NCBI GenBank assembly: GCA_018661705.1
Contig: JABJHR010000013.1
Location: 1-64,000 of the forward strand
Reading direction: 5' to 3'
DNA: 64,000 nt
Origin: Candidatus Woesearchaeota archaeon
GTDB taxonomy: Archaea; Nanobdellota; Nanobdellia; Woesearchaeales; DSVV01
The notes below the pieces were generated by a model. The model was given only the letters and a program-made list of their open reading frames with translations. It was not told the origin of the DNA and searched no databases. The position numbers and the translations under genes are program-made. Of this stretch, positions 1,696-49,081 are shown one piece after another (the first letter of the stretch is position 1; each line of letters begins with the position of its first letter).

Positions 1696-4600
1696 ATGGA
1701 TCATGAATCAGAAACACTCAAGCACCCAAGTCCTAAAAAGGAAGTTTGTGGAGACTTTTGTTTAGTTGACGCAATGGAGGAATATAAAAAAGCCTTGTTT
1801 GTTGTATGTGATGGATTAAGTGGACATATGGATAGTTTTGCAAGTAAGTATGCTGCCCAAAAATTAGATGAAAGAATAAGACGAAGATTCTTTAACAAAG
1901 ATCAAACACCACTTCAAGAAATAATAAAAATTGAAATTGATAAAATTGATCAAGAATTAAAAGCAGAACATGCAGGAACAACATTAGAATTTGCATTGTT
2001 AGATCAGGAAACTAGAATCTTGCACACAGCCCATACAGGAGATTCCAGAATTTATTTAATTGAAGGTGGCATGCAAGAAAAACCTTTTGTTGACTCAGAA
2101 TTGATATTAAGAACAATAGATCAAGCACACGGAGATGCAGACAGGGGACCATCTAATTGTTTAGGAGAAGGTGCACCAACAAATGTATTATATGATCGTT
2201 TTGATTTAAATCAAATGGATGAAACAGTATTTATACTTATGTGTACTGATGGACTAACTGCTCACAAAGTAACACATAGAGAACTTGAGAAAACATTTCA
2301 AGATTATAGTATGAATCAAGAATTAAATATAATTACTGACCGCTATAAACATTTAACAAGATATCCTTTTGATATGATAGTTCAAGGATTGGAAGATGGT
2401 GGAATTACAAAGGGTTATTGGAGAAAAATATTAGCTCATTTTGAAGAGAGAGGTCATCCATTAAATAACGAAGATTATAATATGAGACGAGAATTAATTG
2501 CTCCGTTAATTCATGAAGATAATCCTGATAAATTAATATATAGAGCCTTATTTGCCGATGCATATGCAACAGCAATAAGAGGAGTTCACGATGACACCAC
2601 ATTTTTAGTAGCTGATCTTAAAGGGAGTAGACATTATTTTACTCAACAACAAGAGGAAATACTTGAAACAAGAAGTGCAGAACAAGAAGTCGCACATCAA
2701 CAAGAACTTCAAAGAATTAAAACACGAGGAAAAAGTGCAGGAAAAAGAAAAGATGAGAGAATCGGAACGTTAAATGAAGAATTACGTAGGACAAAAGCAG
2801 ACTTAAGAGCAAAAGAAACAGAGTTTTCAAGTGCATCAGAAACAATTTCTGGATTAGAAACACAAGTAAAAGATATTACAGGGGAAAGAGACACATTAAC
2901 TGAAGAAAGAGATACTTTAACTGGAGAAAGAGATACACTCCAAACACAATATGAAGAAGAACAAAGATTAAAAACAACTGCAGAAGGAGAAAGAGATGAA
3001 GAGAGAAGAATAAAAGAAGAGAAAAATGGGTTGTTGGGGGGAATTATTAAATTATTGGATATTCCAGACGCAATGTTAGAAACAGTCCAGGAATATGTTA
3101 CAGCAGTAAAAGCAGATAGAAAAACTCTTGGTGAATTAGGAGAGGAAAAAGCAAATCTTGAAGCAACAATTGAAACTATGACTCAAGAAGTAAAAGATGA
3201 GAAAGAAAGAAGAGATGTTTCAGATGAAAAAAGAGAGAAAGCATATACTGCACAAATAGGACAATTAACTACAAAATTAAGAGCAATTGTAACAGAGTAT
3301 AATAGAGTTGTTGGAATGTATAAAGAATTACAAGAGCAGCAGAAAACCATGATTCCAGTTACAGAAGTAGAGGAAATGTTTGGAGTGGTAACGAATACGT
3401 TACAAGAAAGTATAGAACGTTTTATTGATTCTTATAAAGTAGAAGCAGAAAAAGAAACAGGAAAAAGAATAGAACAAGAAGCAGGAATTGAAGAATATGA
3501 TGCCGAAGCAATTATTGCAGATGCAATTAAAGATTATGATCCTGGAGAAAGAGGCGTAGAAACAAGTGACGATGGAACTCCAAGAAGGGGAACTGGATAT
3601 CAACAAAAAACAAAAACTAGAAGATCAGATTCACCAGATAAAGGAATAACAGACGTTGCAGATTTAGATATAGAATATCTTCCAGAATCTAAAGTGCCAA
3701 ATCCTGCAAAAAAAGATATAACATCAGAACAAAATACTACAGAATTAAGTGGAAAAGGAGCAGCATCAGTAGCCTTACCAAAACCAGAGATGGTGGTTGA
3801 AGTTGATCCTGCAGATGTAAACTGGGCAAGAGAAGGAGAAAAAGAAAATTTAGAAGAAGCAACAGTTGATACTCTTGTGGAAACCCTTAATTCAAGAGAT
3901 GGTGGAAGTAAAAAACAAAAAGTTACAGAACCACAAATTCCTAAAGTTGATCCACCTAAAACAGATGCAACAAGTGTTACAGCAGGGGAACTTGCAACAA
4001 GAAATGGTGGAATGATAGGACAAGATAAAACACCACCGCCATTACCTCCTACAGCTCCAGAACCTGCTAAAGAAAGAACACTTAGTTCTTTAAAAGAGTT
4101 TATTGATTATTACAAAAGTAAAGAAGAAACAAAAGATATTCCCCATGATAAGATAAAAAGAGCCATTGTTACAGCACATTTGTTACATTTTGCTAGTTAT
4201 CATAAAAGATTTTCATATGATAAACCAGATAAAGAATTAAGAACATCTTTAGGTAAATTACATAAAAGACAAAATTCAAGGATTTATAATTTTTTTATTG
4301 GCAGAGATATTATGGAAGAGAAATCAAAAGAGAAAAAAACAATTTCTAAAAGTGAAAATAATGTATGTTTAAGTTACATTACAGATATGAATAATGCAAG
4401 GCAAACAGATTATGGTTTTAGTAGATTACAAGAGATTATTGGGAAAAATAGAACAAGAAGCTCAGAATTATCAGAAGAACTTAATGCCCCATATCATCAA
4501 GAAATTCATGCATATGCTAATGCAATTTTAATTTCGAAAAAAAATAAAAAAAAAGGGAGATGGGGGAAAAAAATATTATGGGGGACTGTAGCACTATTGG

Positions 4601-5844
4601 CAATTGCTGCAGGAGGATATGGTGTTCATTATGCAATAAATCATGAGACCGTTGTAGGTTCAGACCCTACAGCTCAATCTGAAAAAACAGATCTTTTCAA
4701 TGATAAATATCAAAAAGGAAACCAAAAATTAGATGAAGAAGAAAAGAAATTAGAAGAGAAGGAAAAAAAAGAAGAAGCTGCAAAAAAAGAAGCAAAAGAA
4801 AAAGCTGATAAAGATGTGGAAAAAGTAATTGAGGAAGAAAAGGTTAAAGAAGCAGAACTATTAAAGGCTAAAGAAGCAAAAGCTGAAAAAGCAGCATTAG
4901 CAAAAACTAAAAGATTAGAAGCACAAAAAGAAAAAGAAAGACTAGAAAAAGAGAAAAAAACAGCGATAAAAGTTAAATTAGCATCTGAAAAAGCAGCATT
5001 AGCAGCAAAAAAGAAAACAGATAAAGCAGCCGTGGCAGCTGCAAAAGCTAAATCTAAGAAAAAAGCAGCGAAAAAAATAGAAGATAGCAAAGTTGTCAAA
5101 ACAAGTGACGAACCAAGCGCAGAATACAAAAAACAGATGACAGATGCATATAAAAATGGCATTCAAAGTAGTGGAGAACAAGCAGGTGGTCTTGAAACAG
5201 CAGTTGAAACGGCAAAACCAGCTGAAGTTAAGAACGATGATCCTTATTTAATAGCATTAACGGCTGCAATTAATGGCACAGGCACTAAATATACAACATA
5301 TGCCCAAATTACAACAATATCAAATCAAGCAAAGTTAAAAGTTGTAAAAGCAACAAAATATCTCAAATCTCAAGGATATAAAATAATACCTGATGGGAAA
5401 ACATTTTATGCAGAAAAAAGTGGACAAAAAGTTACCTTTAAGGATTCTGGCGAAAACGTGGTGGTTAATGGGATATTGAAAGGAAATGTAGAAGGAAATT
5501 ACGCCGCATATATAGGGGATAATCGCCTTACAAAAGTGTTAGGAGGAATATTTTATTTAAAAAAGACTAGTGGAAATCTGTGGAAACTAATATGTAAAAA
5601 AAATAAAGAAACCAGTTGTAAGGATACATTAGAAGCTTATGATCTTACTGAAGATAACTTAGATTACACAATAAAATTGGCCATTAAGAATCAAGAGGCA
5701 AATTGTACAGAAGTTTTCAAAACAGGTTATATCCCTGTAAGTGAAAGTGACATATGTTCAAAATATGATAAAACATTAGGAGATAATATCAGAGCAGGTG
5801 TTGCTGTTGCAACAAGATTAATTCAAATAGTAAAAGGTAACTAA
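1696..5844 (+). CDS. Giant membrane-anchored PP2C-family protein phosphatase
   Basis: A PPM/PP2C Ser/Thr phosphatase fused to a long coiled coil and a membrane anchor. Residues about 20-305 carry the family motifs in order: CDGLSG (Asp39-Gly40), TGDSR (Asp116), CTDGL (Asp185) and DDTT (Asp299-Asp300). These are the metal ligands, so the enzyme should be active. Residues about 315-600 are Glu/Lys-rich coiled coil, followed by a low-complexity linker with a proline run near 780-790 and one hydrophobic segment at about 960-980. Beyond it lie an Ala/Lys/Glu-rich helical stalk (about 1000-1130) and a globular C-terminal domain. Basic residues before the segment suggest a cytoplasmic phosphatase and an outside tail. 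ATG 1696 follows an AGGAG site; the kinase gene starts 1 nt after the stop. Enzyme class is secure; topology and substrate are inference. Confidence 0.9.
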   Translation: MDHESETLKHPSPKKEVCGDFCLVDAMEEYKKALFVVCDGLSGHMDSFASKYAAQKLDERIRRRFFNKDQTPLQEIIKIEIDKIDQELKAEHAGTTLEFALLDQETRILHTAHTGDSRIYLIEGGMQEKPFVDSELILRTIDQAHGDADRGPSNCLGEGAPTNVLYDRFDLNQMDETVFILMCTDGLTAHKVTHRELEKTFQDYSMNQELNIITDRYKHLTRYPFDMIVQGLEDGGITKGYWRKILAHFEERGHPLNNEDYNMRRELIAPLIHEDNPDKLIYRALFADAYATAIRGVHDDTTFLVADLKGSRHYFTQQQEEILETRSAEQEVAHQQELQRIKTRGKSAGKRKDERIGTLNEELRRTKADLRAKETEFSSASETISGLETQVKDITGERDTLTEERDTLTGERDTLQTQYEEEQRLKTTAEGERDEERRIKEEKNGLLGGIIKLLDIPDAMLETVQEYVTAVKADRKTLGELGEEKANLEATIETMTQEVKDEKERRDVSDEKREKAYTAQIGQLTTKLRAIVTEYNRVVGMYKELQEQQKTMIPVTEVEEMFGVVTNTLQESIERFIDSYKVEAEKETGKRIEQEAGIEEYDAEAIIADAIKDYDPGERGVETSDDGTPRRGTGYQQKTKTRRSDSPDKGITDVADLDIEYLPESKVPNPAKKDITSEQNTTELSGKGAASVALPKPEMVVEVDPADVNWAREGEKENLEEATVDTLVETLNSRDGGSKKQKVTEPQIPKVDPPKTDATSVTAGELATRNGGMIGQDKTPPPLPPTAPEPAKERTLSSLKEFIDYYKSKEETKDIPHDKIKRAIVTAHLLHFASYHKRFSYDKPDKELRTSLGKLHKRQNSRIYNFFIGRDIMEEKSKEKKTISKSENNVCLSYITDMNNARQTDYGFSRLQEIIGKNRTRSSELSEELNAPYHQEIHAYANAILISKKNKKKGRWGKKILWGTVALLAIAAGGYGVHYAINHETVVGSDPTAQSEKTDLFNDKYQKGNQKLDEEEKKLEEKEKKEEAAKKEAKEKADKDVEKVIEEEKVKEAELLKAKEAKAEKAALAKTKRLEAQKEKERLEKEKKTAIKVKLASEKAALAAKKKTDKAAVAAAKAKSKKKAAKKIEDSKVVKTSDEPSAEYKKQMTDAYKNGIQSSGEQAGGLETAVETAKPAEVKNDDPYLIALTAAINGTGTKYTTYAQITTISNQAKLKVVKATKYLKSQGYKIIPDGKTFYAEKSGQKVTFKDSGENVVVNGILKGNVEGNYAAYIGDNRLTKVLGGIFYLKKTSGNLWKLICKKNKETSCKDTLEAYDLTEDNLDYTIKLAIKNQEANCTEVFKTGYIPVSESDICSKYDKTLGDNIRAGVAVATRLIQIVKGN

Positions 5845-5845
5845 T

Positions 5846-8800
5846 ATGACAATAGATAAATATGTGGATTTCATAAACCCAAACAAAACACCAGAAGAGA
5901 AAATCATTGAAATTGTCGATGGTAGAAAAACATACAAGTTTTCTAGAGAAAGCCATAGTACAAGAGGAATCAAAAAAGGACATTTTAGTAAAGTATATTT
6001 TGATGATAATTTGGAAGCATGTATTAAAGTTGGAATGGGTATTAGCTATGAAGTAGAAAGAAATGAAAGACATGTTCTAGAAAAATTATTAGAAAAAGGA
6101 ATAATTAGCCTCCCAGAAGGAAAGGATCGTAGAACAGGAGAATTTGATTATCCATTATTATTTATCCCAGAAAGACCAAAAGGAAAAAAAGATGAACACA
6201 TTGCCGTTATGAGAGATTTAGAAAGTGAAGGATGCGTATCTCTAAAAAAAGTTATGGAATTAGATCTTGCAGAAGGTGCAACACCAGAAGAAGAAAAGTT
6301 CAAATTTAAAGGAAAAGCACTTCCACTTGAACATGCTCTTGCAATTTATACAACATTATTAGGAAAGTTAAGTATTTTACATGATGACGCAGAATTAATT
6401 CATACAGATTTAAAAGCTGCAAATATTTTTGTACAATATGATAGATTAGAAAAGATTGTTCAAGATGGAGATCAAAGAAGATTTTTAGAATTAGATCATC
6501 TAAAAGATCTTAAAGTTATGGATTTTGGATTAGCAAGAGAAAGACACGAACGTTGTGAATTATTATTTAATCATGAAGTTGGTGCAATAAAAGATGCTAC
6601 TGGAGATTATTCGAGTAGTTACCAAGGAAGAAGATCAAGAGAAGTTGCATTACATAATTCAGAAATTTCCCCATTAGAATTAATGATGCTTGGTTCTAAA
6701 AATGAAAGTGCACAACCGTGGATTGACATATATGAAGCTTCAAATTTATTTGTATGGATGGTAACCGGAAGATCTGCATTTTATCTAGGGGCAAAACATA
6801 TTGAAAAATATAATGGTATATTATCTAAATGGGACATAAGTGATGAAGAAAATATTGAATTTATAAAAGAAAGCAGAAGAGAATTAGAAAGAAAAAGAGC
6901 AAAAGAAGCAAAAGAATTACTTTTAGATTGTTCAGAATGGATTCCAGAAGACATAGCAACTCAAGCAATGGGAAAAATAATAGAAAGTAAATTTGAAGAA
7001 TTTGTTAATATCATTCAAGACTCTTATTCACAGATTATTACTAGAGTTGTTGCAAGAGATGGTGCAAAACCAGAGGATGGAGAAATCATGAGTAAATTAT
7101 ATCCCATCATAGAAGCAACAACTATGCCTGATCCTAAAAAGAAAGAAAAAAATCAAGGATACCAATATAATGATGCAAAAGAGGTGTCAGGACTAATAGA
7201 AAAGATCATGTTGCAGCATCCTTCCACTTCAGACAATGACCTTGTTAGGAGAGAAGTTATTCAAGATCCAATTGTTAAAAGAAACTATTCAATTAGTTCA
7301 ATAGATGATCAAATTGTACCTGTTACTTTTTCAAAAAACCCTGAAATCAGTACTTCAATTAATGAAGGAGAAACTGCAATTTCAGCAGTTGAAATTTCTC
7401 AATTATCACAGTTACCATATGAGACTGAATCAACACATAAACTTGAGTTTAAGAGAACTTTTAAAGAACATTGGACTGAATTTAAAGCAAAATATAGTAA
7501 AATTGGAAGAGGAATTAGTTATATTTTAGGTGGAGCAGCATTATTAACAGCTCTTGCAGGAGGCATATATTTAGTTGCAAATAGTAAAGCATGTACAGAA
7601 GATGAAACAACAACAACAACTGAAAGTTATGTGATTCCTGATGCAACACCTCTAACACTTATTCAAGACACTGAAACAGTTATTAATGAACAAACACAAG
7701 ATATTATTTCCCAACCAGAAAATGAAGAAAAGGTAAGTAAAGGAAAAGAAGAAAATCCTACAACATCTCCTCTTTGGGAATCACCACAAGAGGGAGATAT
7801 GAGTATACTAAGTGGGTTTGGAGAAGACATTATAAGAAAGGGTTTTGTAAATGCAAGTCCAAAATTAGAAACTCTTCTAAAAGCTGAGAGTGCTCTTAAA
7901 AAAGATACAAAAAAATCAACAGGTGAAACTAAAATTTCTCCTCCCACTGAAGTAGTATTACCACAACCAAAACAACCATTAGAAGAAAAAGTTCAAGATA
8001 AATCAGAAAAACCAACAACTAGTATAAAAACATTAGATGGAAAACCATTGGTTACAGAAGAGAGTAAAAAACCATATAAAAAAGAAGTTAAGCCAAAAAA
8101 ACCAATAAAGAAAAAAGCACCAACTGTTTATGAATTAGTTTCTAAATCATATAACACTCATGTTTCAAAACCTGTTGAAATTAAACTTGCAGATTTAATT
8201 AGAGATAGTTGTGGATGCACAGATGTTAAATATTCAGATATTGATAGTATTTTAAAAGGGGTAGTTGAAGGACACGGGTTAACTGCAAAATACAGTGCGC
8301 GATGGGGAAAACTTACAATCACTCCTGAAAAAATAAATAAAAAACCATACCGAGGAAATACTAGTTTTACTCTCAAATTAAATAATGGTGTAACAAAGAA
8401 ATATACAGTTACCTTTTTTAATAATCCACCTGTACGAGGAGAAAAAGCAGAAGATTTAGTATTAGTGGGTGAAGAAGAAAAAGAGATGAAAATAAATCTT
8501 CAGGATTATTTTACAGATCCAGATGGAAAACCAACTGCATATAAAATCATAGGGGAGTTACAAGGAGAAGGAGAAAATAATGCTAAAGGAATAATTGCTA
8601 CACCAGTTATTAGCGGCAAATATTTAGTTATAACAGCTGAAGGAAAAGATCGACACACCATGGGTAAAAATGGACCCGTTGATCAAAGAGCAGTATTAAA
8701 AATAGTTGCCCTAGACGAAAATTTCCAAACAGATGAAAATGAAGGAGCAGTTACACTTTCAATAAGTGTTGAAGACAGAAATGATTGTCCACAACTTGCT

Positions 8801-9478
8801 AGAAGTATTGATGATGTCCTTTATATTCCCGTAGGAACAACTGTTGAAATAGGTGGTGAAGGAAATAAATCAAAACCTCTATTTAAAGATAAAGATCTTG
8901 GTGGAAAACAATTTAGAGTAACTTCAGATAATGATGATGTAAAGGTATTTGGAAAACCTGGTGGAAAGACGGTGATAAAACAAGGAAGTCTACCAACAGA
9001 CACAGTAATCCCAATTACATTATATGCACAAGATAAGCAAGAAGATTATAAAGAAGATGAAAAATGTCAAGATGAAGAAGGGAATATGATTCCTTTCAAA
9101 GCACCACAAACAACAATAAATGTATTTTATCATGGTGAAAGATCTCTTAAGTTAGGCGGGAAAAGTTTAAAATATCAAGTAAATGGTGCATCTAAAGGAT
9201 ATGCAACCGCAATAACAATAAATAGTGAAGCAATAGCTGCACTTGAAAGTAGAATTAATGCGGACCATGCAAATATAGAGGGGAAATTAGTATTTGATGC
9301 GTCTGGAAAATGTATTGCCACTAGTTTTTGTTATAAGCAAGAAAATGGGGTTTGTAATGATGAACATTATAGCGTTGGTGACCTTCAAACATTCCTAGCA
9401 AAAGAACATATAAAAATTGCCGAAGGAGATATGATAAAAAAAGGTCCAATTAGAATAGATATTAATGGGATTAAGTAA
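5846..9478 (+). CDS. Giant membrane-anchored Ser/Thr protein kinase with cadherin-like ectodomain
   Basis: Residues about 35-340 form a Hanks-type kinase: a Gly-poor nucleotide loop near 43-50, the catalytic Lys in CIKVG (Lys61), the catalytic loop HTDLKAAN (His186-Asp188-Asn193) and the metal-binding DFG (226-228). All key residues are present, so it should be active. A linker leads to one hydrophobic segment at about 557-578. The ~630-residue remainder has a Thr/Glu/Lys/Pro-rich stalk and then modules containing DYFTDPDGKP and NDCPQ...IPVG motifs typical of cadherin-like/Ig-like domains, with a few Cys. The architecture resembles bacterial receptor kinases such as PknB. It is translationally coupled to the PP2C gene (1-nt gap), so the two probably act on the same substrates in opposite directions. 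Ligand and substrates are unknown. Confidence 0.92.
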   Translation: MTIDKYVDFINPNKTPEEKIIEIVDGRKTYKFSRESHSTRGIKKGHFSKVYFDDNLEACIKVGMGISYEVERNERHVLEKLLEKGIISLPEGKDRRTGEFDYPLLFIPERPKGKKDEHIAVMRDLESEGCVSLKKVMELDLAEGATPEEEKFKFKGKALPLEHALAIYTTLLGKLSILHDDAELIHTDLKAANIFVQYDRLEKIVQDGDQRRFLELDHLKDLKVMDFGLARERHERCELLFNHEVGAIKDATGDYSSSYQGRRSREVALHNSEISPLELMMLGSKNESAQPWIDIYEASNLFVWMVTGRSAFYLGAKHIEKYNGILSKWDISDEENIEFIKESRRELERKRAKEAKELLLDCSEWIPEDIATQAMGKIIESKFEEFVNIIQDSYSQIITRVVARDGAKPEDGEIMSKLYPIIEATTMPDPKKKEKNQGYQYNDAKEVSGLIEKIMLQHPSTSDNDLVRREVIQDPIVKRNYSISSIDDQIVPVTFSKNPEISTSINEGETAISAVEISQLSQLPYETESTHKLEFKRTFKEHWTEFKAKYSKIGRGISYILGGAALLTALAGGIYLVANSKACTEDETTTTTESYVIPDATPLTLIQDTETVINEQTQDIISQPENEEKVSKGKEENPTTSPLWESPQEGDMSILSGFGEDIIRKGFVNASPKLETLLKAESALKKDTKKSTGETKISPPTEVVLPQPKQPLEEKVQDKSEKPTTSIKTLDGKPLVTEESKKPYKKEVKPKKPIKKKAPTVYELVSKSYNTHVSKPVEIKLADLIRDSCGCTDVKYSDIDSILKGVVEGHGLTAKYSARWGKLTITPEKINKKPYRGNTSFTLKLNNGVTKKYTVTFFNNPPVRGEKAEDLVLVGEEEKEMKINLQDYFTDPDGKPTAYKIIGELQGEGENNAKGIIATPVISGKYLVITAEGKDRHTMGKNGPVDQRAVLKIVALDENFQTDENEGAVTLSISVEDRNDCPQLARSIDDVLYIPVGTTVEIGGEGNKSKPLFKDKDLGGKQFRVTSDNDDVKVFGKPGGKTVIKQGSLPTDTVIPITLYAQDKQEDYKEDEKCQDEEGNMIPFKAPQTTINVFYHGERSLKLGGKSLKYQVNGASKGYATAITINSEAIAALESRINADHANIEGKLVFDASGKCIATSFCYKQENGVCNDEHYSVGDLQTFLAKEHIKIAEGDMIKKGPIRIDINGIK

Positions 9479-44759: not shown

Positions 44760-46145
44760 ATGGCTCTATATGTAAATAAATCTTATAGTGATCCTGTTAA
44801 ACAATTAAGTAGGGATGTTGTTGTAGATTTTGTTAGAAAGCACTATCAACCACATGAAATTAGAAAATTAAAAGTAGCTTGTTTTCCTGGCCCAGAAATG
44901 TTAGAAGTTACGCACCAATGGGATCAATTAGGAATTCAAAGAAGAAATGTTTATGGTTTTGAATCTCACCCACAAAGCTACCAAAGATTATGTGAAAGAG
45001 TTTCTCAAGAAACAAAAAAAAGTAGAATAAAAACATTTAATGAAGATGTTGCTGATTTCTTAGAACGAGAAAACCAAAGATTTGATATTATTTTCTTAGA
45101 TTATGATGGGTTTTTTGGAAGAAATGTTGATAGAGTTCTTCATGCAATCTCAGAAGAGCAAAGACTGGCAGAAAGAGGAATTGTTGGAATTAATGTAAGA
45201 GAAGGAAGAGAGCATAAAAAAAGACAAAGAGATTACTTAATGAGTCTTTCTCATTTTTCAATGGATGAAACAAACACCCCTAACTTACCAGGATTAGAAA
45301 TTCCTCACGCAGGAAAAAAGAAATTAACAATAGATGAGCACGCAGATAGAATAATTGCTATTAATGATTATATGGATAGAAAAATTGAGGAGAGAGATTA
45401 TGATTTAACTGAAATACGAAATTCAGTTTTTACGAGAACAATTTTAACTAGGTTGTTCCAGGGAAAAAGACTTGACCAGATGCCAAACTTGTTTGTAGAA
45501 GGAGTAATAAGAGAACATGTTGAACATTACAAACGATTTTTCACTGAATTAAATGCAAAAACAGATGGCAGATTCTTTAGAAATGATCCTAAACTAGAAG
45601 AAGCAGTAAAAAGCGACGACATTGATTATATACCTAATTTGCCAGGATTTAAAACAACAATAATTGATGCACTTTACGAGAACACTGGGCTTTCAGTTCA
45701 AGAAGTTGCTTATTTCTATTCAAAAGAAAGATTTGCTTATTACATGCAAGACCATGATTGTTTCAAATATATTAGCAAACCAGGAAATGTTCCAATGATT
45801 GGTGATTTATTTTTGTTTGATCAAAGAAGAGATCTTTTTGATAGTAGAATTGTGAAATATTGGGCTCTTCCAGCAGAAGAAGGTGACAAAGCCTATGGTC
45901 TCGCTAGAGATTTTGGATCAACTGCAAACAAAAGAAAGAAAGCAGCAGAAAAAGCATACAAAAAAGCAGAAAAGAGGAGAAAACCTGGAGCTTATGAAAG
46001 ATATAGACAAGAGGTTATAAAAATCAATGCAGAAGCAATGGCAGCAAAAGACGAATTACTAATGGATTTTTGGAAACATTTTGTTATTTGGAATGAACAA
46101 ACACATCAATTTGAAGCAACAAGAAGATTACTGAGGTTAGAATAA
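44760..46145 (+). CDS. Rossmann methyltransferase-like protein, tandem paralogue 1
   Basis: Residues about 35-150 resemble a class I SAM-methyltransferase fold: CFPGPEMLEV at the position of motif I, an acidic residue after strand 2 (YGFES), FNEDVADFL, and FDIIFLDYDGFF as motif IV. The Gly-rich loop is altered (PGPEM), so cofactor binding is uncertain. A helical middle and a strongly conserved block KYISKPGNVPMIGDLFLFDQRRD (near 340-365, split here only by variation) follow, and a Lys-rich helical tail closes the protein. The same layout occurs in the next two genes. There is no signal peptide. Function is unknown; nucleic acid or small-molecule methylation is possible. Confidence 0.75.
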   Translation: MALYVNKSYSDPVKQLSRDVVVDFVRKHYQPHEIRKLKVACFPGPEMLEVTHQWDQLGIQRRNVYGFESHPQSYQRLCERVSQETKKSRIKTFNEDVADFLERENQRFDIIFLDYDGFFGRNVDRVLHAISEEQRLAERGIVGINVREGREHKKRQRDYLMSLSHFSMDETNTPNLPGLEIPHAGKKKLTIDEHADRIIAINDYMDRKIEERDYDLTEIRNSVFTRTILTRLFQGKRLDQMPNLFVEGVIREHVEHYKRFFTELNAKTDGRFFRNDPKLEEAVKSDDIDYIPNLPGFKTTIIDALYENTGLSVQEVAYFYSKERFAYYMQDHDCFKYISKPGNVPMIGDLFLFDQRRDLFDSRIVKYWALPAEEGDKAYGLARDFGSTANKRKKAAEKAYKKAEKRRKPGAYERYRQEVIKINAEAMAAKDELLMDFWKHFVIWNEQTHQFEATRRLLRLE

Positions 46146-47536
46146 TGCAACATTCATTCCTAGAGGATCCCATGAAACAATTAAACAGGGATGCATATGC
46201 TGGTTTTATTAGAAGGCACAAGAAGCCAAAGGAATTAAGAAATGCCTCTGTATTGTGCATGTCTGGACCTGAGATGAGTGAAGTATTGGCTCTATGGGAT
46301 GGATTAAAGGTAAAAAGAAAGAACATTACTAGTGTTGAAAAAGGAGATGATGAGTATATAGAATTAGAAGAAAGAGTTGCACAAGAACCAGAAGGACAAA
46401 GAATTAAGACTGAAAAAGCTGATATTTTAGATTTCTTAAGAACTACAGACAAACAATTTGATTTTATATTCTTAGATTATTGTGGAATGTTTGATTCTGA
46501 TGTAAGACAAGCAGCATATACAATTTCTAGAAGACAACTTTTGAAAGAAAACGGAATTGTTGCTATTAACATAAGAGAAGGAAGAGAGGATTTAGTAAAA
46601 CAATCAGAATATGTGCTTGCAACTGAATGGTTTGATTCAGGAATAACAGTATCATTTGATGATATAGGAACTGAGAGTTATGATATTGGAGCCCTAGAAG
46701 AGAAGCTTGCAAGAGAGGTAATTCAAGAATACGAAAAACACAAAAAAACAGCAGAAGAAAATAAAGACAAACTAAAAGAATTTAGAAGAACAAGCTTAGC
46801 TAGAACAATTATCTATGGAATGTTTTGTGGAAAAATACAAACACAAATGCCTGAGTTATATCCACCAGAACTAATTGAATGGACAGTAAAAAGTGTCAGA
46901 AAAATGTATGCAAAAGTTAATGAATTAACAGAGGGTTTATTATTCAAAAGAGAACCTATGTTTGCAAGAGCATATGCAAAAAATGATGTTGACACATTAA
47001 TGCAACATTCATGGTTTATGATTCAATCTCAAATAGCAATTATTAATCATTTCCAAAAATTGGGAAGTAATTCCAATGTGTTCCATTATTTAGAAGCAAA
47101 AGCAAGACGACCATACTTTCTGCAGGACATGGAATGCTTCAGATACACTAGTCAACCAGGAAATAGTTCAATGTTCGGTGCAATTGGATTATTTGACCAG
47201 AGAAGAGATTTCTTTGATGAAAATAATATTGGATTTTATTTTGGAAAAGAAAATGGCACTTTAATGATTTATAATGGAGATACTAGAAAAGCACAAAGAG
47301 AAATTAAAAGAGCAGAAGAAAGATTTTATAAAAAAGCACAAGATAGAAGTCGAAGAAGACGTGGAAGAAACAATGGCATAGTATCAAGAGAAATATTAGA
47401 CAGAGAAATAGAGGGGATAAAAAGTCGAGACCTTCGAAGACAAGGCGAGTACATCAGACAATACATGCAATTCTATGAAGCACAACTTAAACACATGGAA
47501 ACTTTTATTCCAAATGTAAGGGAGTTGAGACTATGA
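46145..47536 (+). CDS. Rossmann methyltransferase-like protein, tandem paralogue 2
   Basis: Same architecture as its neighbours: CMSGPEMSEVLALWDGL, FDFIFLDYCGMF and GIVAINIREGRE in the Rossmann-like half, and YTSQPGNSSM then LFDQRRDFFD in the C-terminal half. The N-terminus SFLEDPMKQLNRD matches SFLDDPVKQLWRE of paralogue 3. Its ATG overlaps the preceding stop region and it overlaps the next gene by 4 nt, so the three are translationally coupled. The C-terminal Arg-rich helix (SRRRRGRNN) may contact nucleic acid. Function unknown. Confidence 0.75.
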   Translation: MQHSFLEDPMKQLNRDAYAGFIRRHKKPKELRNASVLCMSGPEMSEVLALWDGLKVKRKNITSVEKGDDEYIELEERVAQEPEGQRIKTEKADILDFLRTTDKQFDFIFLDYCGMFDSDVRQAAYTISRRQLLKENGIVAINIREGREDLVKQSEYVLATEWFDSGITVSFDDIGTESYDIGALEEKLAREVIQEYEKHKKTAEENKDKLKEFRRTSLARTIIYGMFCGKIQTQMPELYPPELIEWTVKSVRKMYAKVNELTEGLLFKREPMFARAYAKNDVDTLMQHSWFMIQSQIAIINHFQKLGSNSNVFHYLEAKARRPYFLQDMECFRYTSQPGNSSMFGAIGLFDQRRDFFDENNIGFYFGKENGTLMIYNGDTRKAQREIKRAEERFYKKAQDRSRRRRGRNNGIVSREILDREIEGIKSRDLRRQGEYIRQYMQFYEAQLKHMETFIPNVRELRL

Positions 47537-48843
47537 CTCATTCATTCCTAGATGATCCAGTAAAACAATTATGGAGAGAGAAAGTAATAGAGTTTGTTAG
47601 AAAGCAATATGGTGTTGGAAAATTAAGCAAACTAAAAGTTCTTTGTATGCCTGGTTCTGAAATGGGGGAAGTATTAAGAGTTTGGGATGAATTAGGTGTT
47701 AGAAGAAAAAATATTTATGGTGTAGAGTATGGAGACGAAGAATTTGCAGAGTTAGAAGCAAGAGTTAAAGAGCTTCCAAACAAACAAAGAATTAGATTGT
47801 ATAATGGGGATGTTGCTGATTTTCTAAGAGATGAAAACACCGTCTTTGATATTATTAACTTAGATTATTGCAGTTATTTTAGCAGAGATGTTGGAAAAGC
47901 ATTGAATGAAATTACTCAAAGACAAAGATTGGCAGAAAAAGGTATTCTTGGTGTTAATGTTTTAGAGAGAAGAGAAACAAAAGCACGGCAAAGAGATTAT
48001 TTAGACATATCTGCTTTATTTGATGAAGGGCTTGTTAAATATGTAGATCCTAAGAGAGAAAAAGGAAATAATAAAATAACATTTGAAGAAGGCGTCAGAG
48101 AATTTGTAAAAGAGATAAAATTTCCTTCTGATTATTCAATTGAAAAAGGTATTGATTTAAGAGACTTAAGACAACAAATATTTACAAGAAGCATTGCCTT
48201 AGGATTTCAAGTAGGAATTAATCCAATGGATCTTCCTAATTTATTCCCACCAGAATTTTTAAAATCTATGCTGGAGATTGTTATTAAATTTTTCTTAGCA
48301 GCAGATAAAGAATCAGATGGTAGATATTTTAGAGAGTATGATTATGCAAAAGAAATTATTGAAGGAGAAAATCTAAGAGATATTGCTGTTACCCCAAATA
48401 TGTCAACACTTTTACAAGCACAACTTAAACAACAACATGCAAAACAAGGATTACATCCATCTGTTGCTGGTTTTATTTATTTGAAATATAAAAAACCTTA
48501 TTTTGTAGAAGATGTAGCAAGTTATAGATATGCTAGCCAACCTTCTGGATCACCAATGATTTGTGATTTATTCTATTTGGATCAGAGAAGAGAATGGTTT
48601 AATCCAGAAAAAGCTGATATGGTCTTAAATAAAATTAATGGTACTTATAAGTCAGTTTGGAAAAATACAAAAAGTGGACAAAAAAAAATAAGACAGCTTG
48701 CAAGAAATGAAAGAGAAGCAACATTATTAAGTAATGCTGATTATGAGGAACAAAGAAATTATATGATAGAACTTGATCAAAAGTATACTGCATATATAAG
48801 ATCATTAGAACAACTAAAACCAGACAGAATTAGGTTAAGTTAG
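47533..48843 (+). CDS. Rossmann methyltransferase-like protein, tandem paralogue 3
   Basis: Third copy of the family (436 aa): CMPGSEMGEVLRVWDELG, FDIINLDYCSYF, GILGVNVLERRE, and the conserved YASQPSGSPM..DLFYLDQRREWF block. It begins 4 nt inside the previous gene. The copies have diverged widely while keeping the two conserved cores, which argues for three distinct roles or a hetero-oligomer rather than recent duplication. The operon ends just before a tRNA gene with its own TATA box. Confidence 0.75.
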   Translation: MTHSFLDDPVKQLWREKVIEFVRKQYGVGKLSKLKVLCMPGSEMGEVLRVWDELGVRRKNIYGVEYGDEEFAELEARVKELPNKQRIRLYNGDVADFLRDENTVFDIINLDYCSYFSRDVGKALNEITQRQRLAEKGILGVNVLERRETKARQRDYLDISALFDEGLVKYVDPKREKGNNKITFEEGVREFVKEIKFPSDYSIEKGIDLRDLRQQIFTRSIALGFQVGINPMDLPNLFPPEFLKSMLEIVIKFFLAADKESDGRYFREYDYAKEIIEGENLRDIAVTPNMSTLLQAQLKQQHAKQGLHPSVAGFIYLKYKKPYFVEDVASYRYASQPSGSPMICDLFYLDQRREWFNPEKADMVLNKINGTYKSVWKNTKSGQKKIRQLARNEREATLLSNADYEEQRNYMIELDQKYTAYIRSLEQLKPDRIRLS

Positions 48844-48847
48844 AAAA

Positions 48848-48857
48848 CTTTAAAAAG
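48848..48857 (+). promoter_or_regulatory. TATA box of the tRNA-Val gene
   Basis: CTTTAAAAAG is centred 29 nt upstream of the first tRNA base (48882). Confidence 0.6.
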
Positions 48858-48901
48858 AAACAGATTGTCTTAGAAATATATGGGCCTATGGTCTAGTGGC
48901 T

Positions 48902-48941
48902 ATACACAAAAATCAGAATTATCTGGTTTTTTGAACCATAG
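48902..48941 (+). other. tRNA intron 1, D-loop (position ~20/21)
   Basis: 40 nt, removed between T48901 and A48942. It contains an internal hairpin CAGA-atta-TCTG and an A-rich/T-rich helix next to the splice motif. The splice helix has 4 pairs, including one G.U. Confidence 0.8.
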
Positions 48942-48980
48942 ATGACATCGCCTTGACTTGGCGAGGATCCCCGGTTCAAG

Positions 48981-49018
48981 ACGCTTTAAATCTCTGAAAG
49001 AGAGTTATAGCATGAAAC
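48981..49018 (+). other. tRNA intron 2, T-loop (position 59/60)
   Basis: 38 nt, removed between G48980 and T49019. It folds into GCT-t-TAA/TTA-t-AGC and TCTCT-gaa-AGAGA. The splice helix TTCA/TGAA is flanked by 3-nt bulges, with one C.A mismatch on the intron side. Confidence 0.82.
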
Positions 49019-49081
49019 TCCGGGTGGGCCCATTTTCTTTATAATTAATTTTATATTATGAATGAAAATCCCCTCTAAACT

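Follow-up and report, generated by a model that had tools for sequence, protein, structure and literature searches.

The window analysed here, a stretch of 64,000 nucleotides of contig JABJHR010000013.1 from a Candidatus Woesearchaeota archaeon, carries on its forward strand a gene for tRNA-Val(GAC) that is interrupted by two introns, one in the D-loop and one in the T-loop (Table 1). Joining the three exons gives GGGCCTATGGTCTAGTGGCTATGACATCGCCTTGACTTGGCGAGGATCCCCGGTTCAAGTCCGGGTGGGCCCA, a tRNA of 73 nt with the discriminator A73 counted in. The product has an acceptor stem of 7 bp, a D-arm with the loop AGTGGCTA, an anticodon stem of 5 bp closed by the loop TTGACTT, which presents the anticodon GAC, and a T-stem of 5 bp with the loop TTCAAGT. 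All stem pairs are intact except 13:22 of the D-stem, a T.T opposition that counts against a functional reading. A TATA-box-like element, TTTAAAAA, lies about 26 nt 5' of the tRNA start and may act as its promoter, and the T-rich stretch on the 3' side is a possible transcription terminator. Directly upstream of the gene stand three genes in tandem, similar in appearance and encoding 461, 463 and 436 aa. Elsewhere in the window are two very large adjacent proteins which, judged from their translations alone, contain PP2C phosphatase-like and Ser/Thr-kinase-like motifs and transmembrane stretches.

Table 1. Features of the tRNA-Val(GAC) locus and of its surroundings, in positions of the window.
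Feature	Position	Strand	Basis
tRNA-Val(GAC) gene, two introns	48882-49032	+	Cloverleaf parse, ARAGORN, homologues
Exon 1: 5' halves of acceptor stem and D-stem, most of D-loop	48882-48901	+	Cloverleaf parse, ARAGORN
Intron 1, 40 nt, D-loop, position 20a/21 (site 20/21)	48902-48941	+	BHB parse, homologues
Exon 2: remainder of D-arm, anticodon arm (GAC), variable region, 5' half of T-stem, T-loop positions 54-59	48942-48980	+	
Intron 2, 38 nt, T-loop, position 59/60	48981-49018	+	BHB parse, homologues
Exon 3: T60, 3' halves of T-stem and acceptor stem, discriminator A73	49019-49032	+	
BHB 1, central helix GTGG / CCAT	48896-48899 / 48936-48939		
BHB 1, bulges CTA / AGA	48900-48902 / 48940-48942		
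BHB 2, central helix TTCA / TGAA	48975-48978 / 49013-49016		
BHB 2, bulges AGA / ACT	48979-48981 / 49017-49019		
TATA-box-like element	48849-48856	+	Sequence; promoter role inferred
T-rich stretch, possible terminator	49033-49056	+	Sequence; role inferred
Three tandem similar-looking genes	44760-48843		
Two very large adjacent proteins	1696-9478		Translations

Both insertions are framed by a bulge-helix-bulge (BHB) motif. The central helix is complete in each case, with four of four pairs (one of them G.U in the first motif), and it is flanked by two bulges of exactly 3 nt. In the second motif the outer helix is formed by the five T-stem pairs of the tRNA itself. Against this regularity, the inner helix of both motifs has a mismatch at, or adjoining, its first pair near the bulge. 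The first-pass annotation had described this gene with the same helices, the same bulges and the same 73-nt product with T-loop TTCAAGT; these claims were borne out by the BHB geometry, by a cloverleaf scan, by ARAGORN and by homologues, and its intron boundaries proved right to the base. For the first intron, excision in another register, removing 36 or 38 nt and leaving a longer D-loop, gives parses within 0.5 points of the preferred one. However, these parses have a weaker BHB or a lengthened D-loop, and only the 40-nt excision yields the D-loop AGTGGCTA found in the intronless orthologue of a congener (G001), which makes the other registers very unlikely.

The unspliced window yielded no tRNA with ARAGORN and no Rfam family reaching threshold, a silence that fits the reading of the insertions as introns. 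ARAGORN calls tRNA-Val(gac) only when both introns are removed; the removal of either one alone gives no call. By using an intron-tolerant cloverleaf finder, which allowed for every BHB-compatible excision and was applied to the two strands each of the window and of a single dinucleotide-shuffled control, the locus was recovered as the top match with the same boundaries, at a cloverleaf score of 32 against 30 for the runner-up, and the single shuffled copy gave no match scoring 29 or more. The precursor also folds better than all of 200 shuffles (z = -4.6). Self-splicing introns of group I or II might be considered instead, given that rRNA genes of Woesearchaeota and of other DPANN archaea can carry group I introns (PMC6125680), but 38-40 nt is much too short for a ribozyme and its conserved core, the window holds no Rfam family at threshold, and the boundaries agree with BHB geometry, so that the probability of this alternative is negligible. 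The blindness of ARAGORN and Rfam to tRNA-Val(GAC) means that essential tRNAs in Woesearchaeota may escape generic annotation.

Comparison with related genomes bears on the reading of the gene as functional. In the congener, tRNA-Val(GAC) is intronless and shows four differences in 73 positions from the spliced host tRNA, two of them making up one compensated T-stem pair (G-C to A-T). A member of another family of the same order (G028) carries tRNA-Val(GAC) introns at both of the same sites, of 18 and 25 nt and with different intron sequences. At the D-loop site the exon-intron helix covaries, from GTGG/CCAT in the host to GTGG/CCAC in the 18-nt intron of G028 and GCGG/CCGT in an insert at this site in G050, the last read by eye; at the T-loop site it is TTCA/TGAA in tRNA-Val(GAC) and TTCG/CGAA in the sister tRNA-Val(TAC) of the same genome. 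The 59/60 intron recurs in this sister gene and in tRNA-Val of G018, G028, G041 and G052; in G018 it is accompanied by an intron at 37/38. The upstream DNA with the TTTAAAAA box, back to about 48835/48849, matches that of the tRNA-Val(GAC) genes of the congener and of G028 at 78-81%. The host's tRNA-Val(TAC) has introns at 37/38 and 59/60, and its spliced form is identical to that of the congener, which is without the T-loop intron; thus, introns have been gained or lost within the genus while the mature tRNA stayed unchanged. Position 33 of tRNA is a near-universal T, and the tRNA-Val(GAC) genes of three relatives (L025 of G050, L031 of G023 and L030 of G030) have instead C at this position, in the anticodon loops TCGACAT or TCGACAC.

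These comparisons also weigh on two less favourable readings of the locus. It could be a decaying tRNA pseudogene with two insertions, the valine GUC/GUU codons being read by another tRNA; two insertions in one small gene would accord with this. However, neither a second tRNA-Val(GAC), one of the findings that the first-pass annotation had named as speaking against its own reading, nor a second copy of its anticodon arm was found in the assembly, which is 92.8% complete. The intact stems, with 13:22 as the sole exception, the compensated T-stem change, the adherence of both insertion ends to BHB rules and the similar interruption of most other host tRNA genes all argue against decay, and a pseudogene is thus improbable. 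An assembly artefact, in the form of a chimeric or error-laden contig, is more improbable still: the genome is fragmented into 19 contigs, but unrelated assemblies, G028 and G018 among them, have introns at the same sites, and errors do not make two BHB motifs whose removal restores a tRNA.

Within its own genome (1.65 Mb), such a gene is ordinary. The Rfam tRNA model gave 12 matches above cut-off and 21 in all, and from these matches and their neighbours 23 tRNA genes were read, an incomplete sample, drawn from stretches around matches, that is biased against heavily interrupted genes. Interruptions were seen in 21 of the 23: 18 were clearly parsed with introns, three were interrupted with an unsettled parse (L011, L016 and L019), and two were intronless. 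Two introns were found in six tRNAs, namely Val(GAC), Val(TAC), Arg(TCT), Arg(CCT), an elongator-like Met(CAT) and a Ser-like gene. Among the host genes, introns are seen repeatedly at 20/21 and 59/60, and this recurrence of introns and of positions makes tRNA-Val(GAC) a typical gene of its genome. Two of the host genes, tRNA-Gly(GCC) and the Ser-like tRNA (L018 and L022), have T-loop introns that share most of 42 bases, AAACTGTGTTT...AAAACGCAGTTTT, with a score of 47 against 22 for the best of 200 shuffles, a likeness that suggests the copying of an intron between tRNAs. The tRNA-Val(GAC) introns were likewise checked for signs of transposition, and showed no clear similarity to other T-loop introns.

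The type of splicing endonuclease, which the first-pass annotation had named as a point to be sought in the genome, could be tentatively assigned from the sequence. One gene (EndA) was found, with a match at C19:4144-4404 and an open frame of 177 aa from an in-frame ATG. The protein aligns over its length with the enzyme of M. jannaschii (E 1e-33) and with the alpha subunit of N. equitans (4e-35), the latter (3iey_A) being among its closest solved relatives. Aligned with 28 relatives, the protein retains the catalytic Tyr, His and Lys, and its acidic C-terminal loop reads DEEGD, as compared with DADGD in M. jannaschii. In this alignment, neither the insertion of an Aeropyrum-like sequence (3p1z_B) nor a crenarchaeal or ARMAN extra loop is seen. 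No second PF01974 match was found in the host genome, where a divergent beta subunit could escape the search or sit in the missing 7%, and most of 60 related genomes likewise have a single match. The enzyme is therefore probably of the alpha4 type, that is, a homotetramer.

Taken with the gene's anatomy, these data indicate that the locus is very probably a functional, and apparently the only, tRNA-Val(GAC) gene of this archaeon, bearing two archaeal BHB introns. Its precursor would fold into the two BHB motifs, EndA would cut within each 3-nt bulge and free introns of 40 and 38 nt, and RtcB would then join the three exons into the 73-nt tRNA. Both enzymes are encoded in the genome, and rtcB itself carries an insert. 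What counts against this explanation is that non-canonical introns have been associated with heteromeric endonucleases bearing an extra loop (PMC4090602), an association with which a single alpha4-like enzyme does not agree. A strict requirement for 3-nt bulges has been described for an alpha-prime-2 enzyme (PMC12397907), and BHBs as strict as those of tRNA-Val(GAC) would be in keeping with an enzyme that is itself strict. With strict motifs on one side and, as the only enzyme found, a small alpha4-like one on the other, the heteromeric rule for non-canonical introns is called into question.

Genes of this kind are known, and so are the intron positions. The first-pass annotation had held the combination to be rare, which is too strong: 20/21 and 59/60 are already listed among the archaeal non-canonical intron sites (PMC4090602), G028 has the same intron pair, and multi-intron tRNAs are common in some soil Asgard archaea (PMC11291895). 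The Thermoproteales (Pyrobaculum and relatives) similarly carry as many as three BHB introns in one tRNA gene, at canonical as well as non-canonical positions (PMC4090602; PMC8450103), with a mean of 0.84 introns per tRNA gene (PMC8450103). However, the endonucleases of Crenarchaeota are heteromeric (PMC4090602), whereas the host is a DPANN archaeon in which the small alpha4-like enzyme is the only one found. The soil Asgard archaea (Atabeyarchaeia and Freyarchaeia) belong to a different phylum but are alike in their dense, multiple tRNA introns: at least one intron is present in 92-95% of the tRNA genes of three genomes, and some of these archaea have several introns in over half of their tRNA genes, often at non-canonical sites (PMC11291895). 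Nanoarchaeum equitans is also a DPANN archaeon with tRNA introns, and its endonuclease alpha subunit is near the host EndA. It differs in having alpha and beta subunits, while the host has one gene found, with an acidic C-terminal loop as in M. jannaschii, and in having split tRNAs, none of which is involved at the tRNA-Val(GAC) locus. A DPANN lineage thereby joins the intron-dense archaea.

The more novel observation, and one strongly supported by sequence comparison, concerns rtcB, which encodes the tRNA ligase. In the host, a single rtcB gene was found; it lies outside the window (C3:2385-3731) and holds a 33-nt insert with two in-frame stops, placed inside AMPDAHQGY-[insert]-GFSIGG (the HQGY^GF motif). 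The congener has nearly the same insert, and inserts interrupt the gene at this place in relatives G042, G047 and G057 as well; in G055 (L115) a BHB-like insert splits HWGYGF between its H and W, two codons 5' of the common site. A pattern search for interrupted rtcB returned 27 records in a named genome collection (Woesearchaeota, Nanoarchaeota, Aenigmatarchaeota and Micrarchaeota by title) and, within the order, 19 of 352 genomes. In all 28 distinct sequences, from several DPANN phyla, the insert occupies one and the same site, in phase 1, and its removal restores the Tyr codon of HxGYGF. The inserts measure 27-33 nt, many of them not a multiple of three, and all four central BHB pairs are formed in 23 of the 28. 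Over the nine central and inner pairs, 94% of cells are standard pairs, a share that drops to 27-62% on shifting the 3' strand by 1-3 bases, and several positions show at least three pair types. The host's own motif is weak, with two of four central pairs, and for this reason its cleavage is less certain.

On these comparative grounds, the rtcB inserts are quite likely to be spliced. If so, they would be a second example of introns that recur in protein-coding genes of archaea, and to our knowledge the first to affect the sealing enzyme. Precedent is known from the pre-mRNA intron of cbf5 in Crenarchaeota (PMC2738675), which concerns another gene and another phylum, whereas rtcB encodes the enzyme that seals BHB splice junctions. 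In the literature searched, which was without most subscription journals and without any preprints, no report was found of introns in rtcB or of tRNA introns of Woesearchaeota. A tentative, and rather doubtful, proposal is that in many DPANN archaea, whose sole rtcB gene would have one or two BHB introns in catalytic motifs, RtcB is made only after EndA has cut, with existing RtcB sealing its own mRNA, and that the intron possibly serves as a feedback valve. A load of pre-tRNA would tie up EndA and RtcB and, in doing so, change the splicing of rtcB. This feedback role is the less certain part of the rtcB reading. If true, the machinery of tRNA splicing would depend on itself, and the dense tRNA introns of the host would be tied to the control of the ligase.

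A second BHB insert, of 12-32 nt, is present in seven rtcB genes (L126, L127, L131, L136, L141, L147 and L149), and its removal restores the metal-binding motif GGxG(F/Y)D(I/V)NCG. The rtcB gene L140 is also interrupted at this motif, with an apparent intein following INC.
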